Virus record (IMG/VR): IMGVR_UViG_3300010938_000111
Span: 1 to 28,321 of that record
Source of the DNA: a virus
DNA length: 28,321 nucleotides
Reading direction: 5' to 3' (one strand)
The translations under genes and the position numbers were made by a program. Positions 2,895 to 26,578 of the stretch are shown here, piece by piece. The notes beneath the pieces are model-generated. The model saw only the letters and a program-made list of their open reading frames with translations, did not search any database and had not been told where the DNA came from. The number at the start of each line of letters is the position of its first letter. The stretch's first letter is position 1.

Positions 2895-4931
2895 ATGGCC
2901 GATTTAAAAAAGCAGTTAATTTTAGAAGTAAGCCTTGATACTAAGAAGTTAAAAACTGAGATTGAAGCTCTCAAGAAAGACATTAAAGACGTTGGTGCAA
3001 CTGGTGCCGGTTTTAACACTACTGGTTTAAAAGGTTTAAACGAAGATTTAAAAAAAGTTAGAAAAGAGATTACTGCTCTCACAAAAGACATCAAAGGCAT
3101 TGGTTCAACTGGCGCTGGCTCTAACACTACTGGTTTAAAAGGTTTAAACGAAGAGTTAAAAAAAGTTAGAAAAGAGATTACCGCTCTCACGAAAGACATC
3201 AAAGGCATTGGTGCAACTGGCGCTGACACTACTGGTTTAAAAGATTTAAGAAAAGGTGGGCCACGTTCTATCTTAGATATTATTCCTGGAGGGGCTGGAA
3301 TATCTCAAGGTTTAGGTGGGGCAGGTAGATTACTAAGAGGGCCTTTAGGTATTGCTGGCGGAGCTGCAGCTATGTTAACTGGAGGAGCTATGTTAGGTTC
3401 TCAGCTACTTAGTAACTATGATGAAATGAGGGCTTTAAGAGCTTCACAAGCTAACACTATTTCCGGCTTAGCTAGGAGTGGGGACTTTGCTGGTGTAAGC
3501 ATCATGCAAAATGATGACCGTTTAAGAGGACTTCTCGGCGGATCTATGAACGCTGCTGCAGGAGCTGGAAAAGGAGCTTTATTTGGTAGTTTAGCCTTCG
3601 GTGGATTAGGTGCTGTGCTAGGAGGGTTGTTTGGAGGAGGAGTAGGAGCTATTCCTGGAGCAAAACTCGGAGCCGCGTTTGGTTCAGTTGTTGGGGGTTT
3701 AGCCGGCGGAGTTACCTCTTTTATGCCAGGTTACGAAAGGGCACAAAAGGAGGAGCGTGAAAGGTTAATGTTAGAGACCCAACCTATTCGCGATGCTATG
3801 GCTAGACAACGAGAGCTTTCTAATGTTCGTCGTCAAGTTGCTCGAAGAGCCGGTAGAAGTTTAGGCGGAGCAAACACAATGCAGCGCCTAACCTCCTTAC
3901 AATTCCTAGGAACTCGAGAGGGCTTCGGGCAAGAAGAGACATTAAATCAAATGATGCAGCTTGGCTCTTCAGTTGGAATGAACGAGGCAGCTATATCACT
4001 CCCAAGATCACAATACTTCATGAATCGAACTGGTGTTGATGTTGGAACGCAGGGCGCACTAAGAGAAGCAATTACTGGAGCAGAACGAGGCTCTTTTGCT
4101 GGCTCTCAAGAGAAGATGGAAGCTATTATTCGTCGCGGAATGGCTTTCGGTATTAAAGATGGAAAGCTTGATCAGTATGCTCGAATTACAGCAGAAGCCG
4201 TAGAACGAAATGCTTCTTTAGGTGGAGTTCAAGATGCCGATGCGATTGCTGCAGAGCTTGCATCTAGAGCTAGAGGTCTTGCAGGTGAAGGTGATATAAC
4301 GCAAGGAACTTTAGCAAGAGCCGCAGACATTCAATCCACTATTCGTGATTTATCTTCCCAAACTCAAGGTGTTGCAGGCGCTGGAAACTTCTTAGCGATT
4401 CAAAAAGCCGCAAGAGAATCTGGAATAAACTTAGATCCTGCCCAAATGCTTTTAATGGCTCAAGCTTCTAATAAAGGTGGCGGAGCTATGAAAGAGATTT
4501 TAGGTCGTTCAGGCCAATTCTCTGCAGAACAAATAGATAAGTTTGTTGGCGCAGCCACAGCGAACAAAAGCAATCTTACAGAGATGTTTCCTGGTCTTAG
4601 TCAGGATATGCGAGATATTTTGGGCAACATTATGTTTGGTACTACAGAGCGTACTTTAGATGTTGCTAAGTCTGGTCGTGGTGGCATGGGTGCTGCAGAC
4701 GCTATTGACTTAGAAGGTCGAGGCACAGATCAAACTGGAAAAGAAGGCGACCTAAACAGAATTCAACAACAAGTAGATTTTACAGCCTTTCAAGCCGGCA
4801 TGGATAATATTAATTTAAGCATGCGTGAGGCTGCTGTGACTATTAAAAAATACTCTGAAGTAATTGAAAGATCTGCCAAAGTGTTAGAGAATAGAATGAA
4901 TATAATCGATAATAATAATTTAGGAAGATAA
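2895..4931 (+). CDS. Tape measure protein with N-terminal tandem repeats
   Basis: 678 aa, starting 3 bp after the preceding stop. Tape measure proteins run through the tail tube and set its length; at about 1.5 angstrom per residue this predicts a tail of roughly 100 nm. Residues 17-120 are Lys-rich coiled-coil repeats of 36 aa (for example GLNEDLKKVRKEITALTKDI). Two strongly hydrophobic Gly/Ala-rich segments follow at about 145-172 and 220-275, which are glycine-zipper-like and typical of tape measure proteins that insert in the host membrane. The C-terminal half is helical. The stop overlaps the following ATG (ATAATGA). Neighbours on both sides (chaperones, hub) support the call. Confidence 0.85.
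   Translation: MADLKKQLILEVSLDTKKLKTEIEALKKDIKDVGATGAGFNTTGLKGLNEDLKKVRKEITALTKDIKGIGSTGAGSNTTGLKGLNEELKKVRKEITALTKDIKGIGATGADTTGLKDLRKGGPRSILDIIPGGAGISQGLGGAGRLLRGPLGIAGGAAAMLTGGAMLGSQLLSNYDEMRALRASQANTISGLARSGDFAGVSIMQNDDRLRGLLGGSMNAAAGAGKGALFGSLAFGGLGAVLGGLFGGGVGAIPGAKLGAAFGSVVGGLAGGVTSFMPGYERAQKEERERLMLETQPIRDAMARQRELSNVRRQVARRAGRSLGGANTMQRLTSLQFLGTREGFGQEETLNQMMQLGSSVGMNEAAISLPRSQYFMNRTGVDVGTQGALREAITGAERGSFAGSQEKMEAIIRRGMAFGIKDGKLDQYARITAEAVERNASLGGVQDADAIAAELASRARGLAGEGDITQGTLARAADIQSTIRDLSSQTQGVAGAGNFLAIQKAARESGINLDPAQMLLMAQASNKGGGAMKEILGRSGQFSAEQIDKFVGAATANKSNLTEMFPGLSQDMRDILGNIMFGTTERTLDVAKSGRGGMGAADAIDLEGRGTDQTGKEGDLNRIQQQVDFTAFQAGMDNINLSMREAAVTIKKYSEVIERSAKVLENRMNIIDNNNLGR
3015..3230 (+). 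repeat. 108-bp tandem repeats inside the tape measure gene
   Basis: Two units (3015-3122 and 3123-about 3230) encode 36-residue coiled-coil repeats that differ at only a handful of bases. A more diverged half unit precedes them (about 2943-3014) and another fragment follows (ACTACTGGTTTAAAAG, from about 3228). Near-identity at synonymous positions indicates recent duplication. Confidence 0.9.
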
Positions 4932-24677: not shown

Positions 24678-25274
24678 ATGAAATTTAGAATAGACAATAA
24701 CATATTACAAGAAGGCTCTAGTTATAGCAGCGATTTAAAAGACTTTCCTAGAGCGATTAGTTTTGTTACTAAGAAAAACTATAACTTTCAAAACGGAAAT
24801 TTTAACGATCAGACAACCACTCCTTCAGGTACCTATCCTGGTAGCGCCTCATTCGAGGGCGGAGTTCTTCTTCCTGATGGTAGAGTGTTCTGTGTACCTC
24901 ACGGCTCCACCACAGCTAGGATCTACAATCCAGTAACCGATACCGTAACTACCCCTTCGCCTACTTTTCATAGTGGTAGCGCCGCATTTTTTGGAGGAGT
25001 ACTCCTTCCTGATGGTCGAGTTTTCTGTGTACCGCGTGACTCCACTACAGCTAGAATCTATAACCCAGTAACTGATACCGTAACTACTCCTTCAGGTACC
25101 TATCCTGGTAGCGCCGCATTTATTGGAGGAGTACTCCTACCTGATGGCAGAGTTTTCTGCGTACCATACAACTCCACCACAGCTAGAATCTTAGCTGGTA
25201 ATTTTAGTAAAAATATAAATGACTTCCAATTTCCAAAAGAAATAATGTTATCTCCATTTTTAAATAAACTTTAA
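24678..25274 (+). CDS. Kelch-like repeat protein, probable receptor-binding tip
   Basis: 198 aa, starting 2 bp after the previous stop. After a ~45-residue lead (MKFRIDNNILQEGSSYSSDL) come about 2.8 nearly identical 44/45-residue repeats with the core GGVLLPDGRVFCVP, STTARIYNP and VTDTVTTP. This is the kelch/galactose-oxidase-like beta-propeller blade pattern. A closed propeller needs six or seven blades, so this copy is short; it may oligomerise, or repeats may have been lost by recombination. A distinct tail (FPKEIMLSPFLNKL) closes the gene, so it is not obviously broken. Being last in the fibre cassette fits a variable tip protein. Confidence 0.7.
   Translation: MKFRIDNNILQEGSSYSSDLKDFPRAISFVTKKNYNFQNGNFNDQTTTPSGTYPGSASFEGGVLLPDGRVFCVPHGSTTARIYNPVTDTVTTPSPTFHSGSAAFFGGVLLPDGRVFCVPRDSTTARIYNPVTDTVTTPSGTYPGSAAFIGGVLLPDGRVFCVPYNSTTARILAGNFSKNINDFQFPKEIMLSPFLNKL
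24822..25190 (+). repeat. Near-identical 132/135-bp tandem repeats in the kelch-like gene
   Basis: Units begin at the Pro-Ser codons 24822, 24954 and 25089 (spacing 132 and 135 bp). Long stretches are identical at DNA level, including the segment encoding LLPDGRVFCVP and that encoding STTARIYNPV. The third unit breaks off after STTARIL. Confidence 0.9.
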
Positions 25275-25528: not shown

Positions 25529-25985
25529 AGAAGAAGTCTTACTTGGCCGTGTTAAATATGAAGATTTAACTGACGAACAGAAAAAGAATATTGATATTTT
25601 GGTTGACAGAATTAATCGATTTTTTGCTGGGTATATCTGGCCATCTAAGCTACCTAAAAAAGTCAATGATGGATTGCGTAGGCCACAAGATGCACCTAAG
25701 AATGGCTCAGCCACAAGTTGGCATTATAGAGGTGCTGCTATTGATTTGGACGATGATGACTCAGGCGTTACCTGGCAGTATGTGTGGGCAAATCGCAAGA
25801 AGCTAAAGGAAATCGGCTTATGGGTTGAGCATCCTAATTGGACTCATGGTTCAGCAGGTACATGGATGCATTTTCAAATCTACCCACCTAAATCAGGCAA
25901 GAGGTTCTTTGTACCATCAACTCAGCCAGCTCCAGCTCCTAAGTTCTGGGATGGCAAATATGAAGCCGAATTAGATCAGGCTTAA
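25512..25985 (+). CDS. M15-family peptidoglycan peptidase (endolysin or tail-associated)
   Basis: 157 aa from ATG 25512, chosen because GGAGA lies about 7 bp upstream and because an in-frame upstream codon at 25413 would overlap nearly the whole zinc-ribbon gene. The zinc-peptidase motifs of the M15 family (VanY / L-alanyl-D-glutamate peptidase group) are visible: SWHYRGAAIDL gives S69, H71 and D78, and WMHFQ gives H120. E106 in LWVEHPNW is the probable catalytic acid/base region. It would cleave peptide cross-links or stems in peptidoglycan. There is no signal peptide and no recognisable holin nearby, so it could be the endolysin or a virion lytic protein. The Pro-rich stretch near the C-terminus (PSTQPAPAPKF) may be a linker. 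Confidence 0.85.
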   Translation: MSLVTKEEVLLGRVKYEDLTDEQKKNIDILVDRINRFFAGYIWPSKLPKKVNDGLRRPQDAPKNGSATSWHYRGAAIDLDDDDSGVTWQYVWANRKKLKEIGLWVEHPNWTHGSAGTWMHFQIYPPKSGKRFFVPSTQPAPAPKFWDGKYEAELDQA

Positions 25986-26188
25986 TACCATCCATTTATT
26001 TGTCTGGCTAGCCTAATATCCCCAGACGCAATAATCTCGTTTATAACTCTAACCAGCTCTAAATCTCGACCAGTTCGAGCTGAATCATATTCGTTTAGTA
26101 AATTTTGGGCTTTAGGGTCGTTAGAATTCTTTAAATAGTCTATAATTTTTACCATAACTCCATAATTAATAATACTTTTCTTACTCAC
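25982..26188 (-). CDS. Small protein of unknown function
   Basis: 68 aa from GTG 26188, reading VSKKSIINYG at the start and ending ARQINGWY. The frame is open upstream to an ATG at 26281, but that extension would encode only an acidic Thr-Glu-Ala-Asp repeat produced by a hexanucleotide array that reads as Gly-X in another frame. The GTG start has GGAG about 9 bp upstream and overlaps the Gly-X stop codon (GTGAGTAA), so it is preferred. The body is helical and charged. Its stop codon shares TTAA with the convergent peptidase gene. Function unknown. Confidence 0.6.
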   Translation of the reverse strand: MSKKSIINYGVMVKIIDYLKNSNDPKAQNLLNEYDSARTGRDLELVRVINEIIASGDIRLARQINGWY

Positions 26189-26312
26189 AATCTCCGTCTC
26201 CGTATCCGCCTCCGTATCCGCCTCCGTCTCCGCATCCGCCTCCGTATCCGCCTCCGTATCCGTTTCCATCTCCGTTTCCATTTCCGTATTCGGGGTCTTT
26301 TACGCTTTCCAT
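26181..26312 (-). CDS. Gly-X dipeptide repeat microprotein
   Basis: 43 aa from ATG 26312 to TAA 26181-26183, too short for most ORF callers. After a lead MESVKDPEYG, glycine occupies every second residue from 10 to 40, alternating with N, D, Y, G or C (GYGGGYGGGCGDG). It overlaps the end of the DUF6948-like gene by 13 bp and its own stop overlaps the next GTG. No strong ribosome site precedes it, so translation is probably coupled. I recall similar Gly/Tyr/Asp-rich microproteins encoded just behind DUF6948-like genes in other phages, which supports reality, but this is memory rather than a search. Function unknown; low-complexity chains of this kind can be flexible or phase-separating. Confidence 0.6.
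   Translation of the reverse strand: MESVKDPEYGNGNGDGNGYGGGYGGGCGDGGGYGGGYGDGDCE
26191..26288 (-). repeat. Hexanucleotide-based array (plus strand TCCGNN)
   Basis: On the plus strand TCC recurs every 6 bp from 26193 to 26285, mostly as TCCGTA, TCCGCC and TCCGTC, with a few TCCATC/TCCGTT units at one end. In one minus-strand frame this reads Gly-X, in another Thr-Glu-Ala-Asp, and in the third Arg-rich. Confidence 0.85.
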
Positions 26313-26578
26313 TCTGGCACCGCTTCGAGATTTGCAATTGCTTCAGGTGTGCAATCAAGAATTTCGATAACTTCAGTCAGTTCTATTCTTGGAACCGCAA
26401 CGGGGAATTTACATTCGTTCGGATACTTCACTCCGCGCACAGCCATTTCACTGAGCGAGGCTGCACCTTTCCAATACCACAAACGACGCGCATCCGTTAG
26501 TACAGCTTCTTTTCCGTTTCTTGATTCAACATTGGCAAAGAAAACCCCTGCTGAATATGTTCTAACTATTTTCTTCAT
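26300..26578 (-). CDS. DUF6948-like small protein
   Basis: 92 aa from ATG 26578, preceded by GGGAGA 4-9 bp upstream. The sequence RTYSAGVFFANVESRNGKEA, then ARRLWYWKGAASLSEMA and a C-terminal VPEWKA, matches what I remember of the DUF6948 family, widespread in phages and prophages. The product is small, soluble and beta-rich in the first half. Function of the family is not known to me. It ends inside the start of the Gly-X microprotein gene (13-bp overlap), implying co-expression. Confidence 0.7.
   Translation of the reverse strand: MKKIVRTYSAGVFFANVESRNGKEAVLTDARRLWYWKGAASLSEMAVRGVKYPNECKFPVAVPRIELTEVIEILDCTPEAIANLEAVPEWKA

Follow-up and report, generated by a model that had tools for sequence, protein, structure and literature searches.

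The Hfq protein of Acinetobacter baumannii carries a disordered C-terminal tail of glycine repeats ('GGFGGQ') with an acidic tip (PMC11617691), and the Sm core of Escherichia coli Hfq is bound by the protein's acidic tail, which competes with RNA and autoregulates RNA binding (PMC5606850). Here we describe a phage gene pair that resembles these proteins in some respects and departs from them in others. As in A. baumannii Hfq, an Sm-type barrel, in this case predicted, is accompanied by a long disordered glycine-repeat segment bearing aromatic and acidic residues; the phage tail, however, is a separate, overlapping gene, and its repeat is a strict, hypervariable Gly-X alternation in which X is Ser, Tyr or Asp. 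As with the E. coli C-terminal domain, a disordered acidic peptide, a proposed nucleic-acid mimic, is found beside a putative Sm ring, but its acidic residues run along the whole chain instead of marking the tip, and it would act in trans. In sequence, the first gene, DUF6948, is not significantly similar to Hfq. Where Hfq joins core and tail in one chain, we find two genes in our window and at nearly all other loci, with one possible fusion (L219); a glycine-rich, acidic and, by prediction, disordered tail is nevertheless what the Gly-X protein offers. The pair occurs in hundreds of phage genomes, unrelated phages included, and has so far gone unnamed because its second member is of low complexity and annotation often overlooks it or assigns the wrong frame.

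The window, the whole 28,321-nt stretch analysed, comes from an IMG/VR virus fragment of 29.6 kb. Its plus strand holds tail/baseplate-like genes and an endolysin-like gene, followed by the DUF6948/Gly-X unit on the minus strand; a DNA-level search with this region against phages gave no match. The features of the locus are:

26300 to 26578, minus strand: DUF6948 gene, 92 aa, first cistron, predicted Sm/Lsm-like small beta-barrel (PF22253, AlphaFold2, PDB matches)
26181 to 26312, minus strand: Gly-X gene, 43 aa, second cistron (translation; same position in 174/184 homologous loci)
26190 to 26285, minus strand: (Gly-X)16 array, an imperfect 6/12/30-nt tandem repeat (sequence)
26300 to 26312, minus strand: overlap of the Gly-X start with the DUF6948 3' end, 13 nt (sequence; offset of -13 in 139/215 homologous pairs)
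25982 to 26188, minus strand: downstream GTG ORF, 68 aa (MSKKSIINYG...), overlapping the Gly-X 3' end by 8 nt; doubtful gene
25982 to 26281, minus strand: competing 99-aa ORF (METEMETDTEAD...), the 68-aa GTG ORF extended upstream through the array; artefact frame

An earlier note, made from this DNA alone, had pointed to a 43-codon frame with glycine at every second position from residue 10 to 40, overlapped on both sides. Translation of 26312..26181 bears this out: the ORF encodes MESVKDPEYGNGNGDGNGYGGGYGGGCGDGGGYGGGYGDGDCE*, ending in TAA, with glycine at all 16 even residues of that interval, every one of them coded by GGA, and it overlaps DUF6948 by 13 nt and the GTG start at 26188 by 8 nt. 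The alternation score of 16 compares with at most 4 in 40 first-order Markov copies of the window, and Tandem Repeats Finder reports a period of 30 at 26192-26279. The gene at 26578..26300 is a clear DUF6948 member (PF22253, E 1.7e-29, 102 bits, cut-off 27), a family that covers this partner only; the Gly-X protein matches no Pfam or PHROG family. The Gly-X ATG spans a conserved Trp codon of DUF6948 (A-TGG), and we see no clear Shine-Dalgarno sequence for it in the window; judged from sequence, the 13-nt overlap is likely to reflect translational coupling. The note's further statement that the longer ORF encodes nothing but a Thr-Glu-Ala-Asp artefact is right for its first 31 codons, but the rest is the frame of the downstream GTG ORF; the frame of the 99-aa ORF is not conserved across homologues. 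We found no relatives of the 68-aa ORF in IMG/VR or phages and accordingly rejected a three-gene unit; this ORF may not be a gene at all and lies outside the conserved unit. Tandem repeats also occur elsewhere in the window, with 135-nt units at 24815-25191, within a 198-aa ORF (GSAAFxGGVLLPDGRVFCVP), and 108-nt units at 2967-3225, within a 678-aa putative tape-measure ORF.

We translated the DNA downstream of DUF6948 homologues, as the note had proposed, drawing on phage records, IMG/VR (at least 557 relatives) and GTDB genomes (75 loci, mostly metagenome-assembled and spread over many phyla). Far from being absent, a Gly-X run scoring at least 6 within 450 nt behind DUF6948 was present at 174 of the 184 loci whose sequence extended far enough; among other 450-nt windows taken from these loci, 15 of 6,292 contained one. 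In 139 of 215 pairs Gly-X begins 13 nt ahead of the point where the DUF6948 stop codon ends; in most of the others the distance stays within 26 nt. Gly-X is a genuine protein-coding gene and stands second in a conserved pair of phage cistrons, the first being DUF6948 or a divergent relative; the suspected unit is real, and so are the Gly/Tyr/Asp repeats that the note mentioned for the same position in other phages. Standard annotation does miss the frame, as had been expected, in Chlorobiaceae phage CV-1-33 (L005) and phage ctRVW222 (L008), where the wrong one is annotated, and in phiPLPE (L003), where no gene is annotated at this position; 'hidden' describes these three but not the Pectobacterium phages, which carry the correct frame as a hypothetical protein.

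The exceptions to this arrangement are few. The ten loci that fail the pairing test include L008, where the order is reversed, and several whose arrays are short or truncated; two more, L046 and L083, hold DUF6948 truly without Gly-X, indicating that the tail is at least sometimes dispensable. Three of the 15 positive control windows are Gly-X arrays just upstream of DUF6948 (L008, L053 and L055); in L053 and L055 such an array directly precedes DUF6948 in addition to the one behind it. An apparent N-terminal fusion in L008 proved to be an annotation artefact, the Gly-X gene there lying upstream of DUF6948 in another frame. We also rejected a fixed programmed frameshift as the link between the genes, because their relative frame varies between clades. 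The single candidate for a same-frame DUF6948-Gly-X fusion (L219/L320) may be the product of a 1-nt indel; in L320 it occupies about 2001-2850, and some 400 nt downstream a second partial DUF6948 3' end with its own array marks a local duplication. L171 carries two tandem DUF6948 paralogues followed by a long protein without a Gly-X array.

What kind of protein might the first gene encode? An AlphaFold2 model built from 44 sequences gives a small barrel (pLDDT 97.6), and among its best 50 PDB matches essentially all are Sm/Lsm chains or are built on one (3BY7, Lsm, SmAP, SmD). Foldseek assigns these matches a probability of about 1.0, with E of 0.01-0.06 and TM of 0.44-0.60 by query length, although an E of about 0.01 with a TM of 0.5-0.6 would speak to fold class and not to function. 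The best match, PDB 3BY7, shares the small Sm-like barrel but only 12-15% identity with DUF6948; it is of putative cyanophage origin and is not known to have a Gly-X partner. A viral structure library yielded, among its matches, further DUF6948 proteins and one phage protein bearing the name Sm-like. By sequence, a profile search of the PDB with DUF6948 returned no Sm chain and reached no solved Sm protein, and one divergent relative matched Pfam Hfq weakly, at 14.8 bits, below the cut-off of 27. DUF6948 is predicted, on the strength of the model, to be a small Sm/Lsm-like barrel.

Searching in the opposite direction, we scanned IMG/VR for a DNA pattern of twelve GGN-KHY units, which returned at least 120 arrays. 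Among the 120 listed, 62 share their strand with a DUF6948 gene no more than 3 kb away, upstream in 61 of the 62; 16 are cut at a contig end and 42 lack DUF6948, about half of the latter being simple (Gly-Ala)n, (Gly-Val)n or (Gly-Ser)n tracts. The matches listed include 20 true arrays without DUF6948, 17 of which lie directly behind some other protein of 85-140 aa in the same layout. Four of seven such upstream proteins tested match DUF6948, three over the cut-off (69, 36 and 35 bits) and one below it (21.6). Profile comparison links group A6 to DUF6948 (E 1e-4, probability 57%) and group A5 to A6 (E 5e-7, probability 92%); A5 compared directly with DUF6948 gave nothing significant. Since its partners match DUF6948 or are connected to it by profile, Gly-X accompanies a DUF6948-like superfamily that extends beyond the Pfam family.

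The array's own composition bears on which frame is read. Phages of Bacteroidota and Bacillota have a long second protein, with a short conserved N-terminal helix, (Gly-X)n and a conserved C-terminal domain of about 140 aa carrying FAHG...WHHxLTGSC, all in one frame; the position of the array between conserved coding parts fixes Gly-X as the translated frame in those phages. Across 156 arrays, in which Gly makes up about 50% of residues, X is Ser (38%), Tyr (26%), Asp (22%), Phe (4%) or Asn (2.5%) at more than 90% of positions, and Ala at 0.7%; acidic residues average 23% of X. The aromatic fraction of X is 0.31 +/- 0.10, arrays of at least 15 X are never without an aromatic, and Phe stands in for Tyr in 8 arrays. 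Six of the 16 NNC codons (TCC, TAC, GAC, TTC, AAC and AGC) account for 95.5% of NNC X-codons, and Ser, written TCN in most arrays, is written AGY only, with zero TCN, in 8. This codon restriction, together with the AGY-only Ser, the constant aromatics and the Phe-for-Tyr swaps, favours selection at the amino-acid level. Two other tests were dropped: stop codons in alternative frames, because the +1 frame is also open in 151 of the 156 arrays, and wobble-base restriction, weak as evidence when even synonymous TCN rarely carries a purine, for which codon choice by amino acid was substituted. Disorder is predicted over the array of the long form (pLDDT about 30-44). Its C-terminal domain has no PDB fold match and no Pfam or PHROG name; relatives occur in L317 (Riemerella phage CRP6) and L318 (Tetrasphaera phage TJE1), in genes annotated one as 'ribonuclease inhibitor' and one as hypothetical protein, and, from these sequences, the domain may be common to different repeat proteins.

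The predicted fold, the longer Gly-X versions and the hypervariability of the arrays all go beyond the earlier note. Arrays range overall from 12 to 136 aa, and in eight Pectobacterium phages from 53 to 89 aa, where every length difference is a multiple of 6 nt and the flanks are 100% identical. Between the Pectobacterium phages Ymer and Amona, DUF6948 and the 100 nt after the array are identical, whereas the arrays, of 73 and 67 aa, differ in sequence. Within the 200 nt behind DUF6948 the contig ends at 12 of 75 loci in IMG/VR and at 17 of 75 in genomes, far above the 1 and 3 that end upstream; arrays thus break assemblies. In Pectobacterium phages the unit is bounded at its start by a promoter-like TTGACG-17-GATACT and directly after its stop by a hairpin, both weak signals, as one such promoter-like site is expected by chance and the hairpin scored as terminator-like for the opposite strand.

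This pairing of an Sm-like barrel with a disordered, acidic partner rich in Gly is reminiscent of Hfq, and we propose that DUF6948 supplies the core and Gly-X the tail in trans. As a tentative reading, to which we give somewhat less than an even chance, the pair would form an Sm/Hfq-like nucleic-acid binder with a separately encoded, translation-coupled, acidic Gly-rich disordered tail. DUF6948, if its modelled barrel assembles into a ring of the Sm/Lsm/Hfq kind, would bind RNA or single-stranded DNA early in infection; Gly-X, as an acidic and intrinsically disordered polymer with spaced aromatics, would be produced alongside it through translational coupling and would serve as the ring's flexible tail, competing with or releasing nucleic acid and tuning crowding much as the Hfq C-terminal tail does in cis. 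Both the contact between the two proteins and the tail function are put forward by analogy with Hfq. Array length would drift by whole dipeptides through slippage, since the polymer would depend on nothing but its bulk properties (Gly spacing, aromatic and Asp content). The same-frame L219/L320 fusion fits such a core-plus-tail model. If the Hfq-like reading is true, phages have split an Sm core and a disordered tail into two coupled genes, providing a natural system that separates the role of the core from that of the tail, with natural variation in tail length and composition, and a bacterial case for testing how the spacing of Gly, aromatic and acidic residues sets disordered-polymer behaviour. 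Put more broadly, and with a shade more reserve, the pair may be a widespread, so far undescribed phage two-protein system in many bacterial phyla, an Sm-like ring with a hypervariable, disordered (Gly-X)n polymer from its own gene forming a nucleic-acid body or chaperone at the replication site.

Neighbouring genes help to weigh this proposal against others. Among 139 proteins around the unit, the top Pfam families, as raw counts, are RecT (5), AAA_24 (4) and YqaJ (3), and DnaB, helicases, VRR-NUC, RusA and DNA polymerase also occur; the unit lies mostly within an early recombination/replication module, although in this window and in Pectobacterium it adjoins tail or lysis genes instead. Such early neighbours accord with the proposed binding of nucleic acid early in infection and would also suit a condensate scaffold, in which Gly-X, as a FUS-like sticker-and-spacer polymer, drives phase separation and DUF6948 recruits nucleic acid into a droplet at the phage replication site. 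Like the [G/S]Y[G/S] low-complexity domains of FUS type, the arrays combine Gly/Ser spacers with Tyr/Phe stickers, low hydrophobicity and predicted disorder, and the persistence of aromatics, with Phe replacing Tyr, is what stickers would lead one to expect. Strict Gly at every second position is no hallmark of FUS-like domains, however, and high Asp and a separate microprotein also set Gly-X apart; the window protein, at 43 aa, is short for a scaffold, and we consider this explanation unlikely though worth keeping in mind. Fibroin repeats read GAGAGS/GAGAGY, and the strict alternation of Gly with small or aromatic residues in long homogeneous arrays resembles them enough to raise a structural role for Gly-X, folding as it assembles into a silk-like beta stack or polyglycine-II bundle. 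Unlike Gly-Ala-rich silk, the arrays have Asp at roughly one X in five and almost no Ala, and their change in length between near-identical phages, their place mostly among early and not structural genes and the low model confidence over the array make an ordered fibre decidedly improbable.

The unit can stand as a self-contained cassette in the style of a phage moron, which would accord with DUF6948 blocking the transcription terminator Rho or another host machine, with Gly-X as a regulator or decoy tail; a precedent is Rof/YaeO, reported to be an Sm-like Hfq homologue inhibiting Rho (PMC11018626). We found no sequence link between DUF6948 and Rof, hosts over many phyla suit a general nucleic-acid role equally, and Gly-X is left unexplained, so we regard host-factor inhibition as improbable. 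That the repeat acts as DNA or RNA (for example as a GG-N4-GG tract), its frame incidental, would account for the recurrence of GG at 6-nt intervals, which alone is invariant in the DNA, and for the open +1 frame; it is largely refuted, and very improbable, given X codons confined to five residues among the 16 NNC codons, Ser reached through two unconnected codon families, the in-frame position within the long versions and a start codon at a fixed overlap. A neutral microsatellite, open by chance, would shift in whole 6-nt units, as these arrays do, and simple (GA)n and (GV)n arrays occur elsewhere, but an array behind one gene family in 95% of loci against 0.24% of other windows refutes it and leaves it a negligible chance. 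The Hfq-like core with its tail in trans is the reading we retain.

The word DUF6948 is absent from the literature searched, and nothing relevant came from keyword searches on Gly-rich dipeptide or condensate proteins in phages. Two bacterial records also hold the pair. In a Neisseria gonorrhoeae record (L325, NZ_CP119142.1 532023-535172), which has three DUF6948-like places, a DUF6948-like ORF is followed by an unannotated Gly-X ORF (MSYLDQPLKHGYGNGNGSGNGDGYGNG...). On 'plasmid 16' of Monoglobus pectinilyticus (335 kb; L326, NZ_OY725740.1 299504-303776), DUF6948 and a long Gly-X protein lie behind SSB and RusA genes.
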